Source of the DNA: an uncultured Litoreibacter sp. | Lineage (GTDB): Bacteria; Pseudomonadota; Alphaproteobacteria; Rhodobacterales; Rhodobacteraceae | Assembly (NCBI RefSeq): GCF_947501785.1 | Contig: NZ_CANMXB010000001.1 | Coordinates: forward strand, 2,484,501-2,548,500 | Direction: 5' to 3' | Length of the DNA stretch: 64,000 bases | In this document: one piece after another, positions 4,509 through 14,913 of the stretch | Numbering within the stretch: the stretch's first letter is position 1 | How the letters are laid out: each line of letters starts with the position of its first letter | Notes under the pieces: model-generated | Databases searched by the model: none | What the model was told of the DNA's origin: nothing | Seen by the model: only the letters and a program-made list of their open reading frames with translations | Position numbers and translations under genes: made by a program

Positions 4509-7271
4509 CTACTCCGCCGCAACTGCTTCCGCCGGTTTTTCAACCCGCACGGCCGAGAACTTGAACTCGGGAATTTTCCCGTAAGGGTCCAACGCGGAGT
4601 TTGTCAGGATGTTCGCCGCCGCTTCCACATAGGCAAATGGCAGGAACACGTTGTCTTCCGACACCGCGCGGTCAGCGCGGGCCATGACAGTGACCGAGCC
4701 GCGACGCGTGGTCAGCTGGATCATACCACCTGGCTCAACGCCCAGCTTGCGCAAGGTCTTAGGGTGCAGCGAACAGTTCGCCTCGGGCTCCAGCCCGTCC
4801 AGCACCGTCGCACGACGGGTCATGGAACCCGTATGCCAATGCTCCAGCTGCCGACCGGTGATCAAAATGAACGGGTAGTCCGCGTCAGGGCTTTCATCCG
4901 GCGCAATCACGTTAGCCGGGGTAAACCGCGCACGGCCTTCAGGGCGCGGGAAACCGTCGCCAAATACAATCGGCTGGCCGGGGTCTTCGGGGCTGAGCGA
5001 CGGATAGGTCACGGCCTCCCCTTCCAGACGTTCCCATGTGATGTTGTCCAGCGACCCCATGTTCATCTTCATCTCGGCGAAGACCTGTTTGGGGTGGGTG
5101 TAGTCCCAGCCCAGACCCAGCCGTTTCGCCAGTTCGGTCTCAATCCACCAGTCCTCCTTGGCCTCACCCGGAGGCTGCACCGCAGGGCGACCCATTTGCA
5201 CCTGACGGTTGGTATTCGTCACGGTGCCGGTCTTCTCCGCCCATGCCGATGCAGGCAGGATCACGTCCGCATAGTTCGCGGTTTCCGTCAGGAAGATGTC
5301 TTGCACCACCAAATGATCCAGCTTCGCCAAAGCGTCGCGGGCGTGGTCCACATCAGGGTCGGACATGGCAGGGTTTTCGCCCAGCACATACATGCCTTTG
5401 ATCTCGCCTGCATGGATCGCATCCATGATCTCAACCACCGTCAGGCCTTTTTCGTTGGAGAAGTCGTCAGACCCCCAAACCTCATTAAACGCCGTCCGCA
5501 CGCCGTCATCAGTCACACTCTGATAGTCCGGCAGGAACATGGGGATCAGCCCTGCATCAGACGCACCTTGCACGTTGTTCTGCCCACGCAGCGGATGCAG
5601 CCCCGCGCCCGGACGACCGACATGGCCACACATCAGCGCCAGCGAGATTAGGCAGCGGGAGTTATCCGTGCCGTGGATGTGTTGCGACACGCCCATACCC
5701 CAGAAAATCATGCCAGCCTTGGCACCGGCCCAAACCCGCGCCACGTCGCGCAGCACGTCAGGCTCAATGCCGCAAATCTTCGACATTTTGTCGGGCGAGA
5801 ACCCCTTGAGATGCGCTTTCATCTCGTCCCAGTTCTCGGTGAAGCCCGAGATATATTGTTGGTCGTACAGCTCTTCTTCCACGATCACATGCATGATCGC
5901 GTTCAGCATCGACACATCCGCGCCGGGCCGAAATTGCAGCATATGCGACGCGTGGCGCTTCAGCCCTTGGCCGCGCGGGTCCATAACAATCAGCTTGCCG
6001 CCACGCTTGGTGAATTGTTTGAAATACGTGGCCGCAACGGGGTGGTTTTCCGTCGGGTTCGCCCCGATCACAATTGCCACGTCCGCGTTTTCAATCTCGT
6101 TGAACGTCGCGGTCACAGCGCCGGAGCCCACGTTTTCCAACAACGCGGAAACCGAAGACGCGTGGCACAGCCGCGTGCAGTGATCGACGTTGTTGTGTTT
6201 GAATGCCTGCCGGATCAGCTTCTGGAACAGGTACGCTTCCTCGTTCGAACATTTCGCCGAACCAAAGCCCGCAATCTCGCGGCCTCGGCCCTTCATACCA
6301 TTCGCGGCGAAGTCCAGTGCCTCATCCCACGTCGCTTCCCGGAAGTGGGTGGACAGATCCGAGGGGTCCACATTCAGCCCCTTCGCCGGCGCGTCGTCGC
6401 GGCGGATCAGCGGTTTCGTCAGGCGGTGCTTGTGGTCGATATAGTCGAACCCAAAGCGGCCCTTCACGCACAAACGGTTCTCGTTCGCGGGGCCGTCAAT
6501 GCCATCCACCCAAGCGATCTTGTCGTCCTTGATCTTGAACGACAGCTGGCAGCCAACACCGCAATAGGGACAAACCGATTTCACTTCACGGTCGAAGTCT
6601 TTCAGGTCACCTTGCTGGTTCTCATCAACTGCAGTCGACGGCATCAAAGCACCCGTTGGGCAAGCCTGCACACATTCGCCGCAGGCCACACAGGATGACG
6701 CGCCCATCGGGTCGTCAATATCAAACACCGGATAGGCATCATGCCCACGACCGGCCATCCCGATCACATCGTTGACCTGAACCTCGCGGCACGCCCGCAC
6801 GCACAGCCCGCATTGAATACAAGCATCCAGGTTCACGCTCATTGCGACATGGGAATTGTCCAGAAGCGGCACACGCTCAACTTCAAGCTCCGGCAGGCGG
6901 CTGGAGGACACGCCTTGTTCATCCGCCATGTCCCAAAGGTGAGAGGACTTGTCATGCGCCACGTCACGCTCCGGCTGGTCGGTGACCAGCATCTCCATGA
7001 CCATGCGCCGCGCGTTGGTTTCCCGCTCACCTTGGGAGGAGACAACCATCCCCTCAGATGGCTCGCGGATGCAAGACGCGGCAAGCACGCGCTCGCCCTC
7101 AATGCCTACCATGCAAGCACGGCAGTTGCCGTCGCTGCGGTAGCCTTTCTCAGGCTTGTGACACAGATGCGGGATGGTGGTGCCGACCCGCTTGGCGACC
7201 TCCCAAATGGTCTCGCCCTTTTCGGCCTCAACCTCTTTACCGTCCAAAGTGAATTTGATGCTGTCAGACAT
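4509..7271 (-). CDS. fdhA: Formate dehydrogenase alpha subunit (Mo/W-bisPGD, cysteine type)
   Basis: The catalytic subunit oxidises formate to CO2; 920 aa. Order of domains: an N-terminal 2Fe-2S ferredoxin-like domain (Cys in IPHLCHKPEKGY, CRACMVG and LAASC), a ferredoxin pair (CIQCGLCVRACRE and CVACGECVQACPTGA, about 155-210), the molybdopterin 4Fe-4S motif CPYCGVGC (about 230), the catalytic Cys-His in RLCHASSV, and the C-terminal molybdopterin-dinucleotide binding domain. Between the 2Fe-2S and ferredoxin domains, where NuoG/FdsA-like proteins carry a His-Cys3 cluster, the sequence is ERDVAHDKSSHLWD and has no cysteines. No fdsB, fdsG, fdsD or fdhD homologue flanks it. Electron acceptor and partner subunits must be encoded elsewhere. 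Confidence 0.93.
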   Translation of the reverse strand: MSDSIKFTLDGKEVEAEKGETIWEVAKRVGTTIPHLCHKPEKGYRSDGNCRACMVGIEGERVLAASCIREPSEGMVVSSQGERETNARRMVMEMLVTDQPERDVAHDKSSHLWDMADEQGVSSSRLPELEVERVPLLDNSHVAMSVNLDACIQCGLCVRACREVQVNDVIGMAGRGHDAYPVFDIDDPMGASSCVACGECVQACPTGALMPSTAVDENQQGDLKDFDREVKSVCPYCGVGCQLSFKIKDDKIAWVDGIDGPANENRLCVKGRFGFDYIDHKHRLTKPLIRRDDAPAKGLNVDPSDLSTHFREATWDEALDFAANGMKGRGREIAGFGSAKCSNEEAYLFQKLIRQAFKHNNVDHCTRLCHASSVSALLENVGSGAVTATFNEIENADVAIVIGANPTENHPVAATYFKQFTKRGGKLIVMDPRGQGLKRHASHMLQFRPGADVSMLNAIMHVIVEEELYDQQYISGFTENWDEMKAHLKGFSPDKMSKICGIEPDVLRDVARVWAGAKAGMIFWGMGVSQHIHGTDNSRCLISLALMCGHVGRPGAGLHPLRGQNNVQGASDAGLIPMFLPDYQSVTDDGVRTAFNEVWGSDDFSNEKGLTVVEIMDAIHAGEIKGMYVLGENPAMSDPDVDHARDALAKLDHLVVQDIFLTETANYADVILPASAWAEKTGTVTNTNRQVQMGRPAVQPPGEAKEDWWIETELAKRLGLGWDYTHPKQVFAEMKMNMGSLDNITWERLEGEAVTYPSLSPEDPGQPIVFGDGFPRPEGRARFTPANVIAPDESPDADYPFILITGRQLEHWHTGSMTRRATVLDGLEPEANCSLHPKTLRKLGVEPGGMIQLTTRRGSVTVMARADRAVSEDNVFLPFAYVEAAANILTNSALDPYGKIPEFKFSAVRVEKPAEAVAAE

Positions 7272-7361: not shown

Positions 7362-8096
7362 CTACTTGCCAAACACCCGAAAATAAAGCCAATCCGGCAG
7401 AAACTGGCTGCCCCTGAACAGCAAACTGAACAGAGTCGGGAAGCTGCGTTTGAAACCGCCCGATTGCATGTGCTGGAACATGATTTCCGCCGCCTCGTCA
7501 GGTTCCATAATGAACGGCATGTTGAATTCGTTCTTGTCGGTCAGCTGGGTTTTGATGAAGCCCGGGTTGGCCACCTGCATATCCACCCCCGTGCTGCGCA
7601 GGTCGCATTCCATACATTCCGCAAGGCTCATCGCGGCGGCTTTAGATGCAGTATAGCCAATCGACCCCGGCAGCCCCCGGAACCCTGTAAGCGACGAAGT
7701 GATAACGATATGCCCTTCGTCCCGCGCCACCATCGGGGCAACGACATGACCCAGAACGCGCACCATGCCGGTGAAGTTGATGTCCACCATAGCGGTCGCC
7801 TTTTCAACGTCCCACTCCTGCGCCGCCATCGGCCAGTAGACGCCTGCCAGATGCACGTAGCCGTCAATCTCGCCAACCTCGTCCACGGCCCGCGCCACGT
7901 CCTCCGCATCACTAACATCCATCGTTACGTAGGACGCGTTCGGGCCAATCTCGGCAACCGCGGCTTTCAGGTCATCTTCGCTGCGCGCAGAGATCACGAC
8001 CTTTGCGCCCACCCGCGCCAGCTTGTGCGCCAGAGCCTTGCCAAGGCCGGCAGAGCCGCCGACCAACCAGTACCGTTTGCCCGAAAACTCCCTCAC
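7362..8096 (-). CDS. Short-chain dehydrogenase/reductase (SDR)
   Basis: This is a classical SDR of 244 aa with a Rossmann glycine motif GGSAGLGKALA near the N-terminus. It has the catalytic Ser (ITSSLTGF) and YxxxK (YTASKAAA). The C-terminal tail has a hydrophobic aromatic patch (SLLFRGSQFLPDWLYFRV) that may touch the membrane. Its ATG overlaps the stop of the DUF3833 gene by 4 bp, so it is the last gene of the five-gene minus-strand operon diverging from rpoE. An SDR is also present in the matching sigma-E-linked cluster of Rhodobacter sphaeroides, as I recall it. The substrate is unknown; a lipid-like or membrane-associated compound is an inference from the neighbours. Confidence 0.85.
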   Translation of the reverse strand: MREFSGKRYWLVGGSAGLGKALAHKLARVGAKVVISARSEDDLKAAVAEIGPNASYVTMDVSDAEDVARAVDEVGEIDGYVHLAGVYWPMAAQEWDVEKATAMVDINFTGMVRVLGHVVAPMVARDEGHIVITSSLTGFRGLPGSIGYTASKAAAMSLAECMECDLRSTGVDMQVANPGFIKTQLTDKNEFNMPFIMEPDEAAEIMFQHMQSGGFKRSFPTLFSLLFRGSQFLPDWLYFRVFGK

Positions 8097-8671
8097 GCGG
8101 CCTTTTTCACCTCGACATCTACCTTGCGCATGGTCGCCACCAGCTCGGCAACTTTGATGCCGAACTTGCGGAACTGGCTGCGGTTCATGATGGACCCGTT
8201 CTCAACAACATACATCCAGTCAACCGCATCCAGCACGTGACCGCCGGCGCTGTCGGGCAACTTCAGTTTGTACAGCAGCTGCAACGCATGGCCTTTGGCC
8301 ATACCCTGCCCTTCACCGATGACATCTGGTGCCGTCGCCTTGACCGACCCGTCATTACCCAGCGCCAGCGTCCAACACCGGTCCTGCGTCGATCCGTCAT
8401 CATAACGAAAATGCTCCGTCATGGTGCCAACATTGCCTTCCCAGGTGACGTTCATGTCCGCCACAAAGCGCGAAGTCACCTTGCCCAGCGGCCCATATAG
8501 AACCCCTTCACAGATCAACGGCCCATTCAGATGCTCACGCACATTCAAGACATGGCCGTGTTCGACGTAATCGTCAGGGTGCTGCGAGATGAACGTCATC
8601 TTGCTTCGGCGCAGATAAGCCAGCGACAGCACAATTGCTGCGCCGACAAGGAGATAGGTGAGAGCTTCCAT
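8093..8671 (-). CDS. DUF3833 family protein, membrane-anchored
   Basis: The 192-aa protein has an N-terminal membrane segment (YLLVGAAIVLSLAYL) followed by a beta-rich domain. It carries the features I associate with DUF3833: GVLYGPLGKVTSRF, the WEGN/FRYDDG strands, ATAPDVIGEGQG, DWMYVVENGSIMNR and a KFG motif near the C-terminus. The fold is probably lipocalin-like. It begins 3 nt after the MFS gene stop and overlaps the SDR start, so translation is likely coupled. DUF3833 proteins recur with FAD oxidoreductase/DUF1365 clusters in proteobacteria. Biochemical function is not established to my knowledge. Confidence 0.8.
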   Translation of the reverse strand: MEALTYLLVGAAIVLSLAYLRRSKMTFISQHPDDYVEHGHVLNVREHLNGPLICEGVLYGPLGKVTSRFVADMNVTWEGNVGTMTEHFRYDDGSTQDRCWTLALGNDGSVKATAPDVIGEGQGMAKGHALQLLYKLKLPDSAGGHVLDAVDWMYVVENGSIMNRSQFRKFGIKVAELVATMRKVDVEVKKAA

Positions 8672-8674
8672 AAG

Positions 8675-9913
8675 TCAGTCCTCCAGTGGGGTGGCGGCCA
8701 GAAGGCCAATGGCTACGAGTTTCAGGATGCACGGCACCAACGCGTATAAGTACGTCAGCGTGCTCAGGGCTGTTTCAGGATTGTTCGTCGCACCAGAGGT
8801 GAAGCCCGCCAGCTGCAAGATTGGCAACAGCACGGCGGCGGCGAAGGCGAGGGTAAATTTCGACACAAGGGACCACAGCCCGAACCCTTGACCCCCGTTG
8901 GGAGAGACCTGCGCCATGCGTCTGGCGAACATCGCCGGAAGCAGGGTCAGATCAGCCCCAATAGTTGCGCCCGACAGGACGCAAATGATGGCAAACAGCC
9001 ATACGTCACCGGCCCCAAGGGCCAGCACACAGGCATAAAACAGAATGGCCAGAACCATGGCGCTCAGCAGTGCGCGCTTCGGCCCAACACGGTCCGACAG
9101 GCGCGCCCAAAATGGGCTCGACGCAGCGGCAGCGAAGAAAAAGAGCACCAGCAAAGGTCCCTCCCACCCCGGCGCATCAAGGCGGCTTTCGACGTAGAAC
9201 AGGAACAGGGTCGACGACACCGCCACAGGCGTCGCGTTGACCAACGCCAGGATCAGCAGCCGCTTGGCCACCGTGTCATTCAGAATCGCGCGGATCGGCG
9301 TCGGGTCCTGCGTCCCGCCGCCCGTCCATTCCGGCGTCATCCAAATCAGCGCAGCCAGCACGAACAGGCCGAAAGACACCGCAAAGATCGCAAATGGCGC
9401 GTCCACCACCGGCTCCAACACGCTGGGTGCAACTGCGGCCAAACAGACGCCCAGCAAGGCCCCCGTTTCCCGCCACGCCGCGAGCCGCGTATGCCCGTCA
9501 TTCATTGAGGACGCTTTCGTCACGCCCTCCGCATAGAAGTTGATCGACATGAAGCTAAACGCCGTGAACAGCCCGGTAATTGTTAGCCCGAACCACCACA
9601 CCGCGCCTATCGGCGGCTCTATCGCGAACAGCCCGTACATCGACGCGGCCAGCACCAGTCCTGCAAACCAAACCGCCAAGCGGCGCAGCTTGCCCAGCCT
9701 TTCGCTGACCCAGCCCAAAACGGGGTCTTGCACCACGTCAAACAGCCGCAACCCGAACAGCACGGCGCCCAGCAGGGTCAGGTTGATCCCAAAATTGTCG
9801 GCGTAGAATTTCGGCGCGTAAATATAGATCGGCAACCCAGCGCCAGACAGCACTGCGCCGAACAGCGACCACGCCGGCAAGCGGGCCGCTTGTGCTTGGA
9901 TCACGGCGCTCAT
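8675..9913 (-). CDS. MFS transporter, MelB/GPH-like
   Basis: The protein has 412 aa and about 12 hydrophobic segments. The N-terminal IYIYAPKFYADNFGI and DVVQDPVLGWVSERLG stretch resembles glycoside-pentoside-hexuronide (MelB-type) cation symporters, including the conserved aspartates of helix 2. The ATG at 9913 overlaps the stop of the DUF1365 gene (ATGA), so a longer upstream start is not needed. The placement in an operon of lipid-modifying candidates suggests a lipid or lipid-derived substrate instead of a sugar. That is inference. A similar transporter is annotated in the Rhodobacter sphaeroides cluster divergent from rpoE. Confidence 0.8.
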   Translation of the reverse strand: MSAVIQAQAARLPAWSLFGAVLSGAGLPIYIYAPKFYADNFGINLTLLGAVLFGLRLFDVVQDPVLGWVSERLGKLRRLAVWFAGLVLAASMYGLFAIEPPIGAVWWFGLTITGLFTAFSFMSINFYAEGVTKASSMNDGHTRLAAWRETGALLGVCLAAVAPSVLEPVVDAPFAIFAVSFGLFVLAALIWMTPEWTGGGTQDPTPIRAILNDTVAKRLLILALVNATPVAVSSTLFLFYVESRLDAPGWEGPLLVLFFFAAAASSPFWARLSDRVGPKRALLSAMVLAILFYACVLALGAGDVWLFAIICVLSGATIGADLTLLPAMFARRMAQVSPNGGQGFGLWSLVSKFTLAFAAAVLLPILQLAGFTSGATNNPETALSTLTYLYALVPCILKLVAIGLLAATPLED

Positions 9914-10668
9914 CTTGAAACGTCTTCGGTCGGAGGCACCGGACGGGTGCGGAACATCGCGCCCTTCCACCACAGTTTGAAGGCCTGCCAATGGATCAAT
10001 CCAAGCACTCGCCGGGACCCCAAAGGCCGCCGCAGGCAGGCGCGTAGGATTGATGTGTTAGACAGCGGCGCCCGCTTGCCCGTAAGTGTCGCCAACAGCC
10101 CGTTCTCACCCGCGTTGTAATCGATCCAAATACCGATCTTGTCGTCGCGAATGTCGAAGCGGAACTTGTAGCCGCCTTCGACCGGCTGAAACGGCGAGAC
10201 GTAGAAAATCTTGGTCGCAGTCAGTGTGTCCGTGGCCGCGATGATCCGTTGGTCCTCATGGGCGCAGAGGTATGAATGCCGGTCGCCATAGGTGTTGCTG
10301 ACCTCTGGCACCACGACCCGCAAGCCGCCATTCGCATCAAAGCCCAACCAGAAGGACACCGGGTTAAACACATGGCCCAACACGCGCGGCTGCGCCAACA
10401 GCGCGACGCGCTCAACAACGTCAGCCAGCCCATGCGCCGCCAGCACCTCACGGAACCAAGCGGCGCCGCTGCCGTCTTTGGGCGCGCCACCGTGGTCACG
10501 GTCCCACAGCGACACCAAATTCCCACCATTGCGCGAGAACAGCGCAGGCCCGAGGGCCGAAGCCTCAGGGTCCAGCATGACGTAATCCACGCCGTAAGAG
10601 AACGCGTTCTCAACGCTGCCCTTCCGCCCGTGGAACGTGGTTCCCGCGATATGGTGGATCTGGCTCAA
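9910..10668 (-). CDS. DUF1365 domain protein (COG3496 type)
   Basis: The 252-aa protein has hallmark stretches of DUF1365: IAGTTFHGRKGSVENAF at the N-terminus, the FNPVSFWLGFDANG and EVSNTYGDRHSYL motifs, and the FYVSPFQPVEGGYKF core. DUF1365 genes almost always follow a COG2907 FAD oxidoreductase and are often followed by a cyclopropane-fatty-acid-synthase-like gene. Here the first partner is present and the third is absent. Stop and start codons overlap by 4 bp on both sides. A role in unusual fatty-acid or membrane-lipid modification during singlet-oxygen stress is inferred. In R. sphaeroides, products of the equivalent cluster were linked to ChrR turnover (from memory of published work). 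Confidence 0.88.
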   Translation of the reverse strand: MSQIHHIAGTTFHGRKGSVENAFSYGVDYVMLDPEASALGPALFSRNGGNLVSLWDRDHGGAPKDGSGAAWFREVLAAHGLADVVERVALLAQPRVLGHVFNPVSFWLGFDANGGLRVVVPEVSNTYGDRHSYLCAHEDQRIIAATDTLTATKIFYVSPFQPVEGGYKFRFDIRDDKIGIWIDYNAGENGLLATLTGKRAPLSNTSILRACLRRPLGSRRVLGLIHWQAFKLWWKGAMFRTRPVPPTEDVSR

Positions 10669-11960
10669 GCCGCAACCGCGCCCGTGTTGAACGCGGTCAT
10701 CGCGTCAGCCACGTCTACCGCGCTTGCCAGCCCGTCCTCGTGGAAGCCATTCTTCATCCATGCGCCGCAGAACCACGTGCCGTTGGTACCGTTCATCGCC
10801 GCAATTTTCTGCTGCGCGTCCAAAGCGGCAATATCGAACACCGGATGCATGAACATCTTGGTGTCATAGATCAGCTCTTCCTTGATCGGGCGGTTGGAAT
10901 TCAACGTGATGAACATCTCATCATCCGCCGGAATGTCCTGTAGCGAGTTCATCCAATATGTCAGGTCAATCTGGTCCTGCGCACCGGTCGCCGCCTCGCA
11001 ATAGCTCCAGCTCGACCACACTTTGCGCCGCTTCGGCATCATCGACGCGTCCGCATGCAGCACAGCCAGATTTGGCTGGTAACGCACCGCACCCAGCGTC
11101 GCTTTTTCATGCTCAGACGCATCCGCCAGCATATTCAGCGCCTGATCGGAATGGCAGGCAAACACAACCTCATCGAACTGCTCAGCCACACCACCCTCTG
11201 GCGTCACCTGTACGCCCAGCACATCGCGCGAGACTGATGCCATCGGCGCGCCCAGACGGATATCAACCCCAGCTGAGGCCATCTGCGCCTTTAGCCGGTC
11301 AACATACTGCACCGAGCCACCCTGAACCGTTCGCCACTGATGCTGGTCGTTATACCCCATCAGCCCGTGGTTCTTCATGAAGCGCACAAGCGCCTGCGCG
11401 GGGAACTCCAACATCCGCTCCAGCGGAGTGGACCAGATCGCGCCGGTAAACGGCAGCAAATAATGCTCCCGAAACCAACGCCCGGTGCCCAGAATACTCA
11501 GAAACTCACCGACGCTGACGTCGGACGTCTCCGACAGCGCACCAGCTTTGGTGTTGAACCGGTTAATATCGCTCAGCATGCGCAGGAATCGGGGGTCCAC
11601 CACGTTTTTGCGCTGCGCAAAAATCGCGTCCACGCTGGCCAGCCCGTATTCCAAACGGCCCCCGGCAATCGACGCGCCAAAGCTCATGTTGCTGTTAACC
11701 GTCGGCACATCCAGATCGGCAAACAGCCGGGTCAGATGTGGGTAGTTCACCTCGTTGTACACGATGAACCCGGTATCCACCGGCTGGTCGCCCCGCTTGC
11801 CCGCCAACACTGTGCGCGCGTGCCCGCCCAAACGCTTCTCGGCCTCGAACAGGGTGACCTGGTGATCGCGCGACAACAGGTCCGCCGCGCCCATCCCAGA
11901 TATCCCGCCACCTATCACTGCAATTCGCTTCGGCATTACGGGGGCATTTTCAAAGGGCAT
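10665..11960 (-). CDS. FAD-dependent oxidoreductase (COG2907, amine-oxidase-like)
   Basis: This 431-aa flavoprotein has an N-terminal dinucleotide fold (RIAVIGGGISGMGAADLL, then VTLFEAEKRLGGHARTV) typical of the NAD/FAD amine oxidase superfamily. The mid-region HSDQALNMLADASE and a C-terminal WFCGAWMKNGFHEDGLASA flavin-contact motif are characteristic of the COG2907 group. The ATG at 11960 has GGAG 6 nt upstream and is preferred over the internal ATG at 11936. It is the first gene of the operon, about 107 bp from the end of the rpoE promoter region. A sigma-E-like promoter is proposed at 11993-12022. Substrate is unknown; acyl-chain oxidation is plausible by association. Confidence 0.88.
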   Translation of the reverse strand: MPFENAPVMPKRIAVIGGGISGMGAADLLSRDHQVTLFEAEKRLGGHARTVLAGKRGDQPVDTGFIVYNEVNYPHLTRLFADLDVPTVNSNMSFGASIAGGRLEYGLASVDAIFAQRKNVVDPRFLRMLSDINRFNTKAGALSETSDVSVGEFLSILGTGRWFREHYLLPFTGAIWSTPLERMLEFPAQALVRFMKNHGLMGYNDQHQWRTVQGGSVQYVDRLKAQMASAGVDIRLGAPMASVSRDVLGVQVTPEGGVAEQFDEVVFACHSDQALNMLADASEHEKATLGAVRYQPNLAVLHADASMMPKRRKVWSSWSYCEAATGAQDQIDLTYWMNSLQDIPADDEMFITLNSNRPIKEELIYDTKMFMHPVFDIAALDAQQKIAAMNGTNGTWFCGAWMKNGFHEDGLASAVDVADAMTAFNTGAVAA

Positions 11961-11992
11961 TCAGGTCTCCAGCACGGATTATTTTGTTATAA

Positions 11993-12022
11993 GTCATACG
12001 GTCATAGCCCTCAGGTGGATTA
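11993..12022 (-). promoter_or_regulatory. Possible sigma-E promoter for the FAD oxidoreductase operon
   Basis: Read on the minus strand, TAATCC (12022-12017) is followed after exactly 18 nt by TATGAC (11998-11993). This resembles the Rhodobacter sigma-E promoter (TGATCC, 18-nt spacer, TA-rich -10) with one mismatch in the -35 element and a degenerate -10. Transcription would start about 25 nt before the operon's first ATG. Confidence 0.45.
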
Positions 12023-12033
12023 AAAGGAAATTG

Positions 12034-12063
12034 TGATCCAGACACGTGTTCGGCCCGTAATAG
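12034..12063 (+). promoter_or_regulatory. Sigma-E promoter for rpoE-chrR autoregulation
   Basis: TGATCC at 12034-12039, an 18-nt spacer, then TAATAG at 12058-12063. This matches the sigma-E promoter pattern known for Rhodobacter sphaeroides rpoE (TGATCC -35). Because transcription should begin near 12069-12071, an ATG at 12068 could only be used as a leaderless start. This supports the downstream start at 12182 for rpoE, with a leader of roughly 110 nt. Confidence 0.75.
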
Positions 12064-12181
12064 TTTCATGTTGAGCGAAGTTGACACGATAGAGCGCCCC
12101 GACACCTTGCCCCCGGCGGCAGGATATGCTGCGTCGGTGGAGAAGAAGACGAAGGCGAAACGTAGATATGTATCGGCCAAC

Positions 12182-12718
12182 ATGACCGAAGAGACACGAT
12201 GGATCGACTGCATGGCCCGTATCCGCGCCTCCCAGGACCGGGAGGCGTTTGGCGAGCTGTTCAGTCATTTTGGACCTAGGGTGAAGGCGTTTTTGATGAA
12301 ATCCGGTTCGAACATGACAATGGCGGAAGAATGCACGCAGGACGTGATGGTCACGCTGTGGCGCAAGGCGCATATGTTCGACCCCTCCCGGGCCTCGGTG
12401 TCCACTTGGATTTTCACCATCGCACGGAACCGCCGGATCGACCTGATCCGCAAAGAACGCCGGCCGGAGCCGGACGAATTGACATGGGGGCCTGAACCCG
12501 AGCCCGAACAGGCCGACGCTTTGGGACTGCAACAAGAAAGCGCGCAACTTCGCGACGCGCTCGCAACCCTGCCGGAGAAGCAACGCACGCTGATCCAGCA
12601 AGCCTATTTTGGCGATCTCACCCACAGCGAGATTGCCGCGAACACTGGTCTGCCGCTCGGCACGATCAAATCCCGAATTAGACTGGCGCTGGAACGCTTG
12701 CGCCACGCAATGAAGTGA
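12182..12718 (+). CDS. rpoE: RNA polymerase sigma-E factor, singlet-oxygen type
   Basis: This ECF sigma factor is 178 aa from ATG 12182, matching the length of Rhodobacter RpoE. Region 2 (FGELFSHFGPRVKAFLMKSG, EECTQDVMVTLWRKA, STWIFTIARNRRIDLIRKE) and region 4 (LPEKQRTLIQQAYFGDLTHS, GTIKSRIRLALERLR) are both complete. The frame stays open upstream to ATG 12068, but that codon sits at the predicted transcription start. Neither start has a strong ribosome-binding site, so the start is uncertain. chrR follows after 7 nt. In the well-studied R. sphaeroides system, RpoE is held by ChrR and released by singlet oxygen, the by-product of (bacterio)chlorophyll excitation. Confidence 0.9.
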   Translation: MTEETRWIDCMARIRASQDREAFGELFSHFGPRVKAFLMKSGSNMTMAEECTQDVMVTLWRKAHMFDPSRASVSTWIFTIARNRRIDLIRKERRPEPDELTWGPEPEPEQADALGLQQESAQLRDALATLPEKQRTLIQQAYFGDLTHSEIAANTGLPLGTIKSRIRLALERLRHAMK

Positions 12719-12725
12719 ACATGTT

Positions 12726-13367
12726 ATGACAGATGTAAAACACCACCTGACTGACGAGCTGTTGATGGCCTATGCCGCCGGTACTTTGGCCGAGGCGTTC
12801 AATCTGGTTGTCGCCACCCACATCACGCTGTGCGACGAATGCCGCGCGCGCCTCGGCGCGTTCGAGGCCGTCGGCGGCGCGCTCCTTGAAGATGCCGACG
12901 AGGTTGAAGTGAGCGCCGATATGGAAGCGATCTTTGCCAAAATCGCGGCAACAAACAGCGAAATCCAAGTCACCCCGGCGTCGACTGGCGTATTTCCCTC
13001 AGCCCTGCAGGATTACGTCGGAGGCGACCTGGATGCCGTCAAATGGCGCCCCGTGGGCATGGGTGTGAAGCAGGCCATTCTGAAAACCTCCAAGACCGCC
13101 TCTGTCCGGCTGTTGCGGATCCCCGCGGGGGCCGCGATGCCGGATCACGGTCACAACGGCACCGAACTCACACTGGTGCTGAAAGGTGCCTTCAAGGATG
13201 AACACGACCGCTTTGCCCGGGGCGACATCGAAATCGCGACCGAGGCAGATCACCACACGCCCATCGCCGAGGCCGGAGAGGACTGCATCTGCCTCTCCGC
13301 CACTGACGCGCCGCTGAAGTTCCGTGGTCTGCTCCCCCGCATCGCGCAACGCTTCGCCCGGATTTAG
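12726..13367 (+). CDS. chrR: Anti-sigma-E factor ChrR (zinc anti-sigma domain plus cupin)
   Basis: This 213-aa protein binds and inactivates RpoE. The N-terminal zinc anti-sigma domain has His6/7, His32, Cys36 and Cys39 (HITLCDEC). The C-terminal cupin-like domain has His141, His143, Glu147 and His176/177. Cys187 and Cys189 are also present. These positions coincide with the metal-binding and cysteine residues reported for R. sphaeroides ChrR, so the protein appears fully functional. It is co-transcribed with rpoE. The cupin domain is needed for the response to singlet oxygen in Rhodobacter, while the N-terminal domain alone holds the sigma factor. Confidence 0.95.
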   Translation: MTDVKHHLTDELLMAYAAGTLAEAFNLVVATHITLCDECRARLGAFEAVGGALLEDADEVEVSADMEAIFAKIAATNSEIQVTPASTGVFPSALQDYVGGDLDAVKWRPVGMGVKQAILKTSKTASVRLLRIPAGAAMPDHGHNGTELTLVLKGAFKDEHDRFARGDIEIATEADHHTPIAEAGEDCICLSATDAPLKFRGLLPRIAQRFARI

Positions 13368-13419: not shown

Positions 13420-13472
13420 TTGCCAATGCGGGGCCGCTGCGTTGAGATATGCGCAGCAACAGGGGGATTTGC

Positions 13473-14111
13473 ATGACACTTGAGGTTATCGGCGCGGGCA
13501 TGGGCCGCACGGGCACAGAATCGCTGCGCCTCGCGCTGCAAATCCTCGACTTGGGCCCGTGCCACCACATGGTTGAACTGCGCGCCGACGCGGCGCTGGT
13601 CCCACCCTGGCTCACCGCCATACAATCCGGCGCCACCCCCGACTTCGACACCGCGCTCGAAGGCTTCACATCCCAGCTTGACTGGCCGGGGGCCTATTAC
13701 TGGCGCGAACTTGCAGACTGGGCGCCAAACGCCAAAGTCATCCTGACCACGCGTGGCTTTGACGGCTGGTACGCCTCCATGCAGCAAACCATCCTGCCAT
13801 TCGTGGCCCTCAAGGGCCGCCACCATCCGCCGCATCGCAATGATATCGCGGAATTTGTCGATCTCATGCTCACCAAGCAATTCGGTGGCAAGCTGGACGA
13901 CCCTGCCCATGCCAAGGCGGTGTTCGAAGCCCATATCGAAACCGTCAAAGCCACCATCCCCAACGACCACCTGCTGGTGCTGCCGGTTGGCGCAGGCTGG
14001 CGGCCGCTCTGCGATTTCTTCGGCCTGCCTGTCCCCGACGCGGACTACCCGTCCGGCAACACCACCAAGGATTTTCAGGACCGCATCGCCGCCAATCTGA
14101 GGGAGGACTGA
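13473..14111 (+). CDS. Sulfotransferase family protein
   Basis: The protein is 212 aa from ATG 13473, which has a GGGGG-containing site upstream. It contains the sulfotransferase 5'-phosphosulfate loop variant GAGMGRTGTESLRLAL at the N-terminus and a 3'-phosphate-binding-like segment VILTTRGFDGWYASM at about 90-104. These place it in the Sulfotransfer_4 group common in marine bacteria and eukaryotes. It would transfer sulfate from PAPS to an unknown acceptor. A 1-nt gap separates it from the HD-domain gene, so the pair is probably co-transcribed, and possibly reads through from rpoE-chrR. Whether it belongs to the sigma-E response is not shown by the sequence. Confidence 0.8.
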   Translation: MTLEVIGAGMGRTGTESLRLALQILDLGPCHHMVELRADAALVPPWLTAIQSGATPDFDTALEGFTSQLDWPGAYYWRELADWAPNAKVILTTRGFDGWYASMQQTILPFVALKGRHHPPHRNDIAEFVDLMLTKQFGGKLDDPAHAKAVFEAHIETVKATIPNDHLLVLPVGAGWRPLCDFFGLPVPDADYPSGNTTKDFQDRIAANLRED

Positions 14112-14112
14112 C

Positions 14113-14913
14113 ATGCACCGCGATGACCTGCTGCAAAAGGCCCGCGACCTCGCGCGGTCCCGTGTCACCGACAAGATGGATCTCGACGAAAAGGTGGACA
14201 TTCTCGAACACACCATGGCGGAACTGCTCGACATCCAGGTGATGAAACCCTTCGTGGGTCGGGTCGGTACCACCGTCGCAGGTGGCATGGAACGCGCGTC
14301 CGGCCGCTGGCTGATGGGCGACGATCCACGGCTGGAACCGATGCCCGAAAGGCCGACCCTTGCCGACTTTTTCCGCCACCGGTTCCTCAAAGACAAGGTC
14401 GGCGGCAACCACCTGTTGCAAAGTGCGCATCTGGCCCGCACCAAAGGCTGCTCTGACAACGTCGTGCTGGCCTGCCTGTTGCATGACATCTCGGTCGTGG
14501 GGTTGATCCGTAACGACCACGGCCATTGGGCCGCGCAAATGGTCGAACCCTACGTGGAGCCAGAGGTCGCATGGGCCATCAAGCACCACCAATCCCTGCG
14601 CTTCCGTGCTGACCCCGATTATGACTACGACTACCCCGCCTTCTACACCGAGGTTTTCGGCGAGGAATACGACCCGCCTGCCTACGTCAAAGAAGAATGG
14701 GCGTATTGCCAGTCCCACAAATGGTTCGACACCGCCATGCAGGTCGTCGTCAACGATCTCTACGCGTTCGACCCCAACGTGACGCTCGACATTGACGATT
14801 TTGCAGATGTCATCGCCCGCGCATTTGACCAACCTTCCGAAGGGTTGGGCTTTGACAAAAGCCCTGTCGCCCATATGTGGCGCACGCTGATCTGGCCAAA
14901 CAACTTTCTTTAG
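14113..14913 (+). CDS. HD-domain metal-dependent protein, unknown substrate
   Basis: This is a 266-aa protein with an HD-type helical metal site. An upstream His is in GNHLLQSAHLA, the paired His-Asp is in LACLLHDIS (about 125), followed by NDHGHWAAQM and AIKHHQSLRF. A final Asp is in VVNDLYAFD. Such spacing occurs in HD phosphohydrolases and in mixed-valent di-iron oxygenases of the PhnZ/MIOX class, and sequence inspection alone does not separate the two. It is immediately downstream of the sulfotransferase. The pair may act on one metabolite, for example a sulfated or phosphonate-like compound, but that is only an inference from adjacency. Confidence 0.7.
   Translation: MHRDDLLQKARDLARSRVTDKMDLDEKVDILEHTMAELLDIQVMKPFVGRVGTTVAGGMERASGRWLMGDDPRLEPMPERPTLADFFRHRFLKDKVGGNHLLQSAHLARTKGCSDNVVLACLLHDISVVGLIRNDHGHWAAQMVEPYVEPEVAWAIKHHQSLRFRADPDYDYDYPAFYTEVFGEEYDPPAYVKEEWAYCQSHKWFDTAMQVVVNDLYAFDPNVTLDIDDFADVIARAFDQPSEGLGFDKSPVAHMWRTLIWPNNFL

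Follow-up and report, generated by a model that had tools for sequence, protein, structure and literature searches.

Is a fatty acid–modifying operon that adjoins the sigma factor genes rpoE-chrR and holds no methyltransferase gene a truncated pathway or one part of a complete one? The locus that raises this question lies at positions 7362-13367 of a 64,000-nucleotide stretch of DNA (the window) from an uncultured Litoreibacter sp. (contig NZ_CANMXB010000001.1, positions 2,484,501 to 2,548,500); plain coordinates below are window positions, and those prefixed with C1: lie elsewhere in the same genome. We put the probability at about 93% that the window carries a furan-fatty-acid (ufa) locus of the Rhodobacter-type split form, in which the methyltransferase UfaM is encoded at an unlinked site. 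Such a locus is an already-described kind of gene cluster, and the split arrangement is the published form of Rhodobacter sphaeroides. A preliminary description, made from the letters of the window, had seen a sigma-E–linked operon for fatty acid modification whose methyl-transfer step was either missing or done elsewhere. The second option was right: judged by orthology, the step belongs to an unlinked UfaM ortholog and is not missing, because an intact gene for it stands elsewhere in the same genome.

How much of the published system is present in the window itself? Five minus-strand genes (7362-11960) diverge from plus-strand rpoE-chrR (12068-13367). We compared their products with those of Cereibacter johrii, a species closely related to R. 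sphaeroides that stands in for it throughout. The gene nearest to rpoE, ufaD (10665-11960), would encode an FAD-dependent fatty-acyl desaturase of the RSP1091 type (Amino_oxidase/NAD_binding_8; 61% identical to the C. johrii protein). Next comes ufaO (9910-10668), the sole DUF1365 match in the genome (PF07103, E 3.4e-67; 67% identity), whose predicted product, of the RSP1090 type, would bring O2-derived oxygen into the furan ring. Three further genes complete the series: one for a GPH-type major facilitator superfamily (MFS) transporter of the RSP1089 type (8675-9913; MFS_2, E 8.8e-56; 54%), one for a DUF3833 protein of the RSP1088 type (8093-8671; PF12915, E 3.4e-50; 56%), and one for an oxidoreductase of the short-chain dehydrogenase/reductase (SDR) family, of the RSP1087 type (7362-8096; adh_short, E 1.2e-42; 53%). 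The junctions, read from the DNA, bear out the overlapping five-gene arrangement reported earlier, with 4 bases shared at three of them and 3 bases of spacing at the remaining one: ufaD and ufaO share TTGA, the TTG start of ufaO overlapping the ufaD stop; ufaO and the MFS gene share ATGA; the MFS and DUF3833 genes are 3 bases apart; and the DUF3833 and SDR genes share GTGA. Because of these overlaps and this gap, SDR-DUF3833-MFS-ufaO-ufaD is likely a single operon. The MFS coordinates follow from an ATG at 9913; the open reading frame list instead starts that gene at 9991.

On the other strand, rpoE (12068-12718) encodes sigma-E, an extracytoplasmic function (ECF) sigma factor of group ECF11, which matches the solved RpoE chain 2q1z_A with E 5.9e-77. 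Because the alignment with that chain begins only at residue 39 of the window protein, the frame from 12068 is probably too long and the true start more likely the ATG at 12182, which would also leave space for a leader after the rpoE promoter. The adjoining chrR (12726-13367) encodes a zinc anti-sigma factor with a cupin-like domain (E 5.4e-68 to ChrR chain 2z2s_B; 201.3 bits for TIGR02451, whose cut-off is 124.5; Cupin_7 also above its cut-off). By eye, in the alignment to 2z2s_B, it keeps all eight zinc ligands published for R. sphaeroides ChrR, namely His6, His31, Cys35, Cys38, His141, His143, Glu147, and His177 (PMC6852236).

The C. johrii locus holds the same seven genes in the same order, with the five operon proteins 53-67% identical to those of the window, and its ChrR shares 96% identity with the solved ChrR chain; it came first in a search with that chain, which gave 136 relatives, the best 80 of which were kept. 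The window resembles R. sphaeroides RSP1091-1087/rpoE-chrR in gene content, order, divergence, and the sigma-E promoters before both operons, and departs from that type in its protein sequences (53-67% identity, with C. johrii as proxy) and in a ufaD site with one mismatch. For the R. sphaeroides system, mutant and enzyme data exist for UfaM, UfaD, and UfaO: RSP1091 is UfaD and RSP1090, the DUF1365 protein, is UfaO; a furan fatty acid forms from the UfaM product only if both are present, and its ring oxygen comes from O2; and the paper states the reductant of UfaO to be unknown (PMC7380195). DUF1365, which had been described for this locus as a family without settled biochemistry, has thus had an assigned role, that of UfaO, in print since 2020. 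The R. sphaeroides ufa operon adjoins rpoE-chrR, each of the two operons has an RpoE-dependent promoter, and full RpoE activation requires RSP1091 and RSP1090 (PMC3818230). The RpoE regulon includes RSP1091-1087, with the products to be expected from the window, such as a GPH-family symporter, a hypothetical protein, and a short-chain dehydrogenase, as well as the pair RSP_2143 (phrA) and RSP_2144 (cfaS) (PMC7074977). Other known systems are arranged differently. In Rhodopseudomonas palustris, RPA2571-2569 are ufaD-ufaO-ufaM, and in Halomonas sp. YLGW01 the ufa genes are consecutive (PMC7380195, PMC12089945); both, known to us from papers only, share the adjacent ufaD and ufaO with the window but have a methyltransferase gene beside them, whereas here it is unlinked.

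Where, then, is the methyl-transfer gene? Four proteins in the genome pass the CMAS cut-off, all of them encoded outside the locus; the earlier statement that a cyclopropane fatty acid (CFA) synthase gene is lacking stands for the locus and fails for the genome. One of the four (C1:2752 kb) was ruled out as a CFA synthase, being UbiG (287 bits for TIGR01983, whose cut-off is 103), and two form a tandem pair considered below. The remaining one is the UfaM ortholog (C1:532154-533374), a 414-residue open frame without stops that shares 73% identity with the corresponding C. johrii protein. A photolyase gene (Pfam E 9.5e-69) ends 112 bases before it, counted from the last sense codon of the photolyase, and in C. 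johrii a photolyase gene lies 42 bases upstream of ufaM. This matches the R. sphaeroides pair phrA-ufaM (RSP_2143, RSP_2144), in which ufaM likewise adjoins a photolyase gene and is unlinked to the ufa operon. Among 20 further relatives' loci fetched for this comparison (L171-L190), the photolyase gene stands 42-132 bases before ufaM in 17 and 636 and 926 bases before it in two, and one has no match.

Is this protein a UfaM rather than a CFA synthase? It belongs to the same methyltransferase family as the CFA synthase (Cfa) of Escherichia coli (6bqc, E 5.3e-61), yet falls under the NCBIfam cut-off for E. coli–type Cfa (292.6 against 400 bits). E. coli Cfa binds bicarbonate through Glu239, His266, and Tyr317 (PMC11387697); the UfaM ortholog has Glu, Gln, and Tyr at these positions and, unlike E. 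coli Cfa, Ser in place of Cys139. The residue check covered 52 rows of the unlinked type, with some genomes present twice, and 22 rows from relatives' loci where a methyltransferase gene lies beside ufaD-ufaO, which we call linked. Glu, Gln, and Tyr occur in 52/52 unlinked and 22/22 linked rows, and Ser at 139 in 51/52 and 21/22, with Ala in the remaining two. In a methyltransferase tree of 57 of 78 rows (near-copies removed), this UfaM falls inside an unlinked clade of 33 rows (support 98/98), the 21 linked rows group in a single clade (99/96), and a 100/100 branch splits both from E. coli Cfa and the tandem pair.

How widespread is the pairing of UfaO with UfaM? We surveyed 61 genomes from the order, the Litoreibacter genome included, all of which fall in one family. 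UfaO is found in 51 of them, an unlinked-type UfaM (at least 62% identity) in 46 by hand count, and a UfaM-like match of 32-45% identity no more than 1.5 kb from ufaO in 15. By hand count, every UfaO-bearing genome (51/51) has a UfaM-like gene, compared with 3/10 of those without UfaO; the hypergeometric probability, with kinship ignored, is 2.8e-7. Four of the 15 linked genes (L054, L056, L057, and L058) were in the tree and residue check, the other 11 being classed by identity and position alone. Both kinds of UfaM, again by identity and position, are present in seven genomes (G001, G004, G008, G012, G017, G041, and G051), perhaps for a second methylation or as redundancy. In G001 the linked UfaM-like gene reaches no more than 32% identity. 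Three genomes (G011, G045, and G049) have an unlinked-type UfaM (64-67%) without a UfaO match and may make only the methylated intermediate. Over the relatives' loci, counted gene by gene, full-length genes number 93 for UfaO, 92 for UfaD, 81 for SDR, 62 for DUF3833, and 53 for MFS, counts in which some contigs end early and some species appear twice.

Does sigma-E control the two divergent operons? Its published consensus is TGATCC-N16-CGTA, described in Pseudomonas (PMC5507510) and in Shewanella, where it was likened to that of R. sphaeroides (PMC4336711). Before rpoE-chrR we found an exact site (12034-12059, plus strand) and before the ufaD operon a TAATCC-N16-CGTA variant (11997-12022, minus strand), which recurs before ufaD in a congener. 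We scanned 88 relatives' loci in which rpoE and ufaD diverge within 600 bases (at least one species appears twice), allowing mismatches and a spacing of N16 or N17, with simple shuffles of the same regions as control. On the rpoE side the site is exact in 86, has one mismatch in one, and is absent from one, against about 0.1 exact sites in shuffles. On the ufaD side it is exact in 72, with one mismatch in 15 and two in one; sites with at most one mismatch thus occur in 87/88 loci versus about 0.4 in shuffles. The first pattern tried (TGATC, a gap of 17-20, and TA[AG][GT]) was too strict, missed most sites, and was replaced by the TGATCC-N16/17-CGTA scan.

Several points nonetheless weigh against reading the window as a split-form ufa locus. 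The consensus comes from papers on Pseudomonas and Shewanella homologs, and the site of the ufaD operon deviates from it by one base. No sigma-E consensus precedes phrA here within the 235-250 bases scanned (at most two mismatches, spacing 16 or 17), unlike in C. johrii, where the site is exact; of 19 relatives that have a photolyase gene there, 5 carry such an exact site, C. johrii included. Before ufaM itself there is only a two-mismatch match with spacing 17, so that joint induction of the unlinked step is no more than a possibility. These results speak against the idea of an unlinked, sigma-E–controlled gene raised in the preliminary description. Furthermore, the comparisons were made with C. 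johrii as proxy for the R. sphaeroides 2.4.1 genome, and in the methyltransferase tree E. coli Cfa and one tandem protein are long branches whose placement is flagged as unsure.

How might ufaM be controlled instead? A genome-wide scan for the exact consensus gave 11 sites (9 forward and 2 reverse), compared with one in the control; one of them is the rpoE site, and another precedes an RpoH gene at ~C1:1731 kb (443.7 bits for NF005693, whose cut-off is 315). Because of that site, an indirect route from sigma-E through RpoH to ufaM is possible; in R. sphaeroides, sigma-E has been reported to activate rpoHII (PMC7074977). An RpoH-like pattern fits the region before ufaM slightly better than chance (mean of 2.86 mismatches versus 3.27 in 100 shuffles, the lowest of which gave 2.95). 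In 14 of 21 loci, the Litoreibacter genome among them, a CTTG precedes the estimated start of ufaM by about 50-63 bases, a count made without a control; it may be part of a promoter of ufaM's own.

The poor promoter context of ufaM, together with an operon that lacks a methyltransferase gene, would also suit a truncated pathway in which UfaD and UfaO have no UfaM partner and work on chains that are unmethylated or modified in some other way. We consider this very unlikely: the genome has an intact UfaM ortholog with UfaM-type residues, no UfaO-bearing genome of our sample is without a UfaM-like gene, and the published type case has the identical split, with ufaM distant from ufaD and ufaO in R. 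sphaeroides (PMC12089945). Less probable still is that one of the two tandem CFA synthases (C1:1713840-1715075 and C1:1715168-1716478) serves as the methyltransferase of the pathway, although both are above the CMAS cut-off and one outscores the UfaM ortholog. Both proteins of this pair (C1:1713840-1716478) have the same Cys and His as E. coli Cfa (Glu, His, and Tyr at the ligand positions and Cys at 139) and lie on the E. coli Cfa side of the tree, while it is the photolyase-linked gene that groups with C. johrii UfaM. Their genes are flanked on one side by that of an aspartyl-type class II tRNA synthetase and on the other by the large-chain gene of carbamoyl-phosphate synthase.

Could the transporter have taken the place of a methyltransferase? 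Some relatives have linked loci (e.g., L054, L144, L146, and L150) that share rpoE-chrR, ufaD, ufaO, MFS, DUF3833, and SDR genes with the window and differ in a UfaM-like gene directly after ufaO; in the 22 linked loci this gene belongs to the separate clade and is 38-43% identical to the UfaM described here. That the MFS gene fills this slot, as had been suggested, and even performs a step of furan fatty acid synthesis, can be given next to no credence: it does follow ufaO with an ATGA overlap, and 12/22 linked loci have no MFS gene nearby, but 10/22 have both genes, and deletion of RSP1089 left the fatty acid profile unchanged (PMC7380195). Some loci without a linked methyltransferase also lack the MFS gene (e.g., L093, L096, and L110). 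The two genes are not alternatives, because 10 loci have both and others neither.

What would the complete pathway do in Litoreibacter? Gene order, orthology, promoter sites, and the presence and residue type of UfaM are direct observations; the chemistry, induction, and physiology that we infer from them follow the R. sphaeroides precedent. UfaM (C1:532154-533374) would methylate the cis-vaccenoyl chains of phospholipids with S-adenosylmethionine, UfaD (10665-11960) would desaturate the product to a methylated 10t,12t-diene, and UfaO (9910-10668) would insert O2-derived oxygen, whereupon the furan ring would close. Furan fatty acids are membrane lipids tied to the singlet oxygen response. Singlet oxygen would cause the loss of ChrR, and the freed sigma-E would transcribe both divergent operons from their TGATCC-N16-CGTA sites, with UfaD and UfaO presumably needed for full sigma-E activation, as in R. 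sphaeroides.

The MFS, DUF3833, and SDR proteins would be cotranscribed accessories, dispensable for synthesis in R. sphaeroides, where deletion of RSP1087, 1088, or 1089 caused no detectable change in fatty acids (PMC7380195). What might they contribute? An AlphaFold2 model of the DUF3833 protein (mean predicted confidence, pLDDT, 93.4; window sequence plus 42 of 47 picked relatives) has an N-terminal helix (residues 2-25) and a ten-strand nitrobindin/calycin-like barrel. It gave 19 Foldseek matches at E ≤0.001 (best 2.7e-5), resembling BFA1, nitrobindins, and a CpeS-type lyase, and the prediction for the protein is thus a calycin-like barrel anchored in the membrane. A limited literature search, judged by titles, found no paper titled on DUF3833 function. 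For UfaO, the model built from the window sequence and 47 of 66 picked relatives (pLDDT 94.6) matched no PDB structure at E ≤0.001; among the 50 matches listed, TM-scores did not exceed 0.30 when normalized by query length or 0.43 when normalized by target length, and the weak matches were mostly lipocalin- and nitrobindin-like barrels. In an alignment of 48 UfaO sequences, 29 columns are invariant, those of His13 and His131 included. The oxygen-inserting enzyme may thus have a fold that has not been described before. One speculative and rather unlikely extension is that the accessories form a furan-fatty-acid handling module, in which the DUF3833 protein would be a membrane-anchored calycin-like carrier of the (oxidized) fatty acid, the SDR would reduce the ring-opened dioxo products of singlet oxygen and furan, and the transporter would move them, with a second methylation, to a dimethyl-furan fatty acid, in the seven genomes with two UfaM kinds.

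The locus is flanked by genes of other kinds. Downstream of chrR, at 13449-14913 on the plus strand, genes for a Sulfotransfer_4 protein and an HD-domain protein lie 1 base apart, the latter with a weak resemblance to phosphonate HD oxygenases. Downstream of the SDR gene and on its strand (4509-7271, minus) is a gene for a 920-residue molybdopterin oxidoreductase with N-terminal iron-sulfur domains, which we read as formate-dehydrogenase–like.

What does the absence of a methyltransferase gene from the ufa operon mean? In every row of the residue check, Gln at 266 and Ser at 139 (Ala replacing Ser in two rows) distinguish UfaM of this type from CFA synthase, and the two UfaM-like clades, like the DUF3833 accessory as a predicted membrane-anchored calycin-like barrel, are further leads. 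The apparent gap in the Litoreibacter operon is removed: a ufaM that lies apart from ufaD-ufaO would be a normal form of a known pathway and not a missing step.

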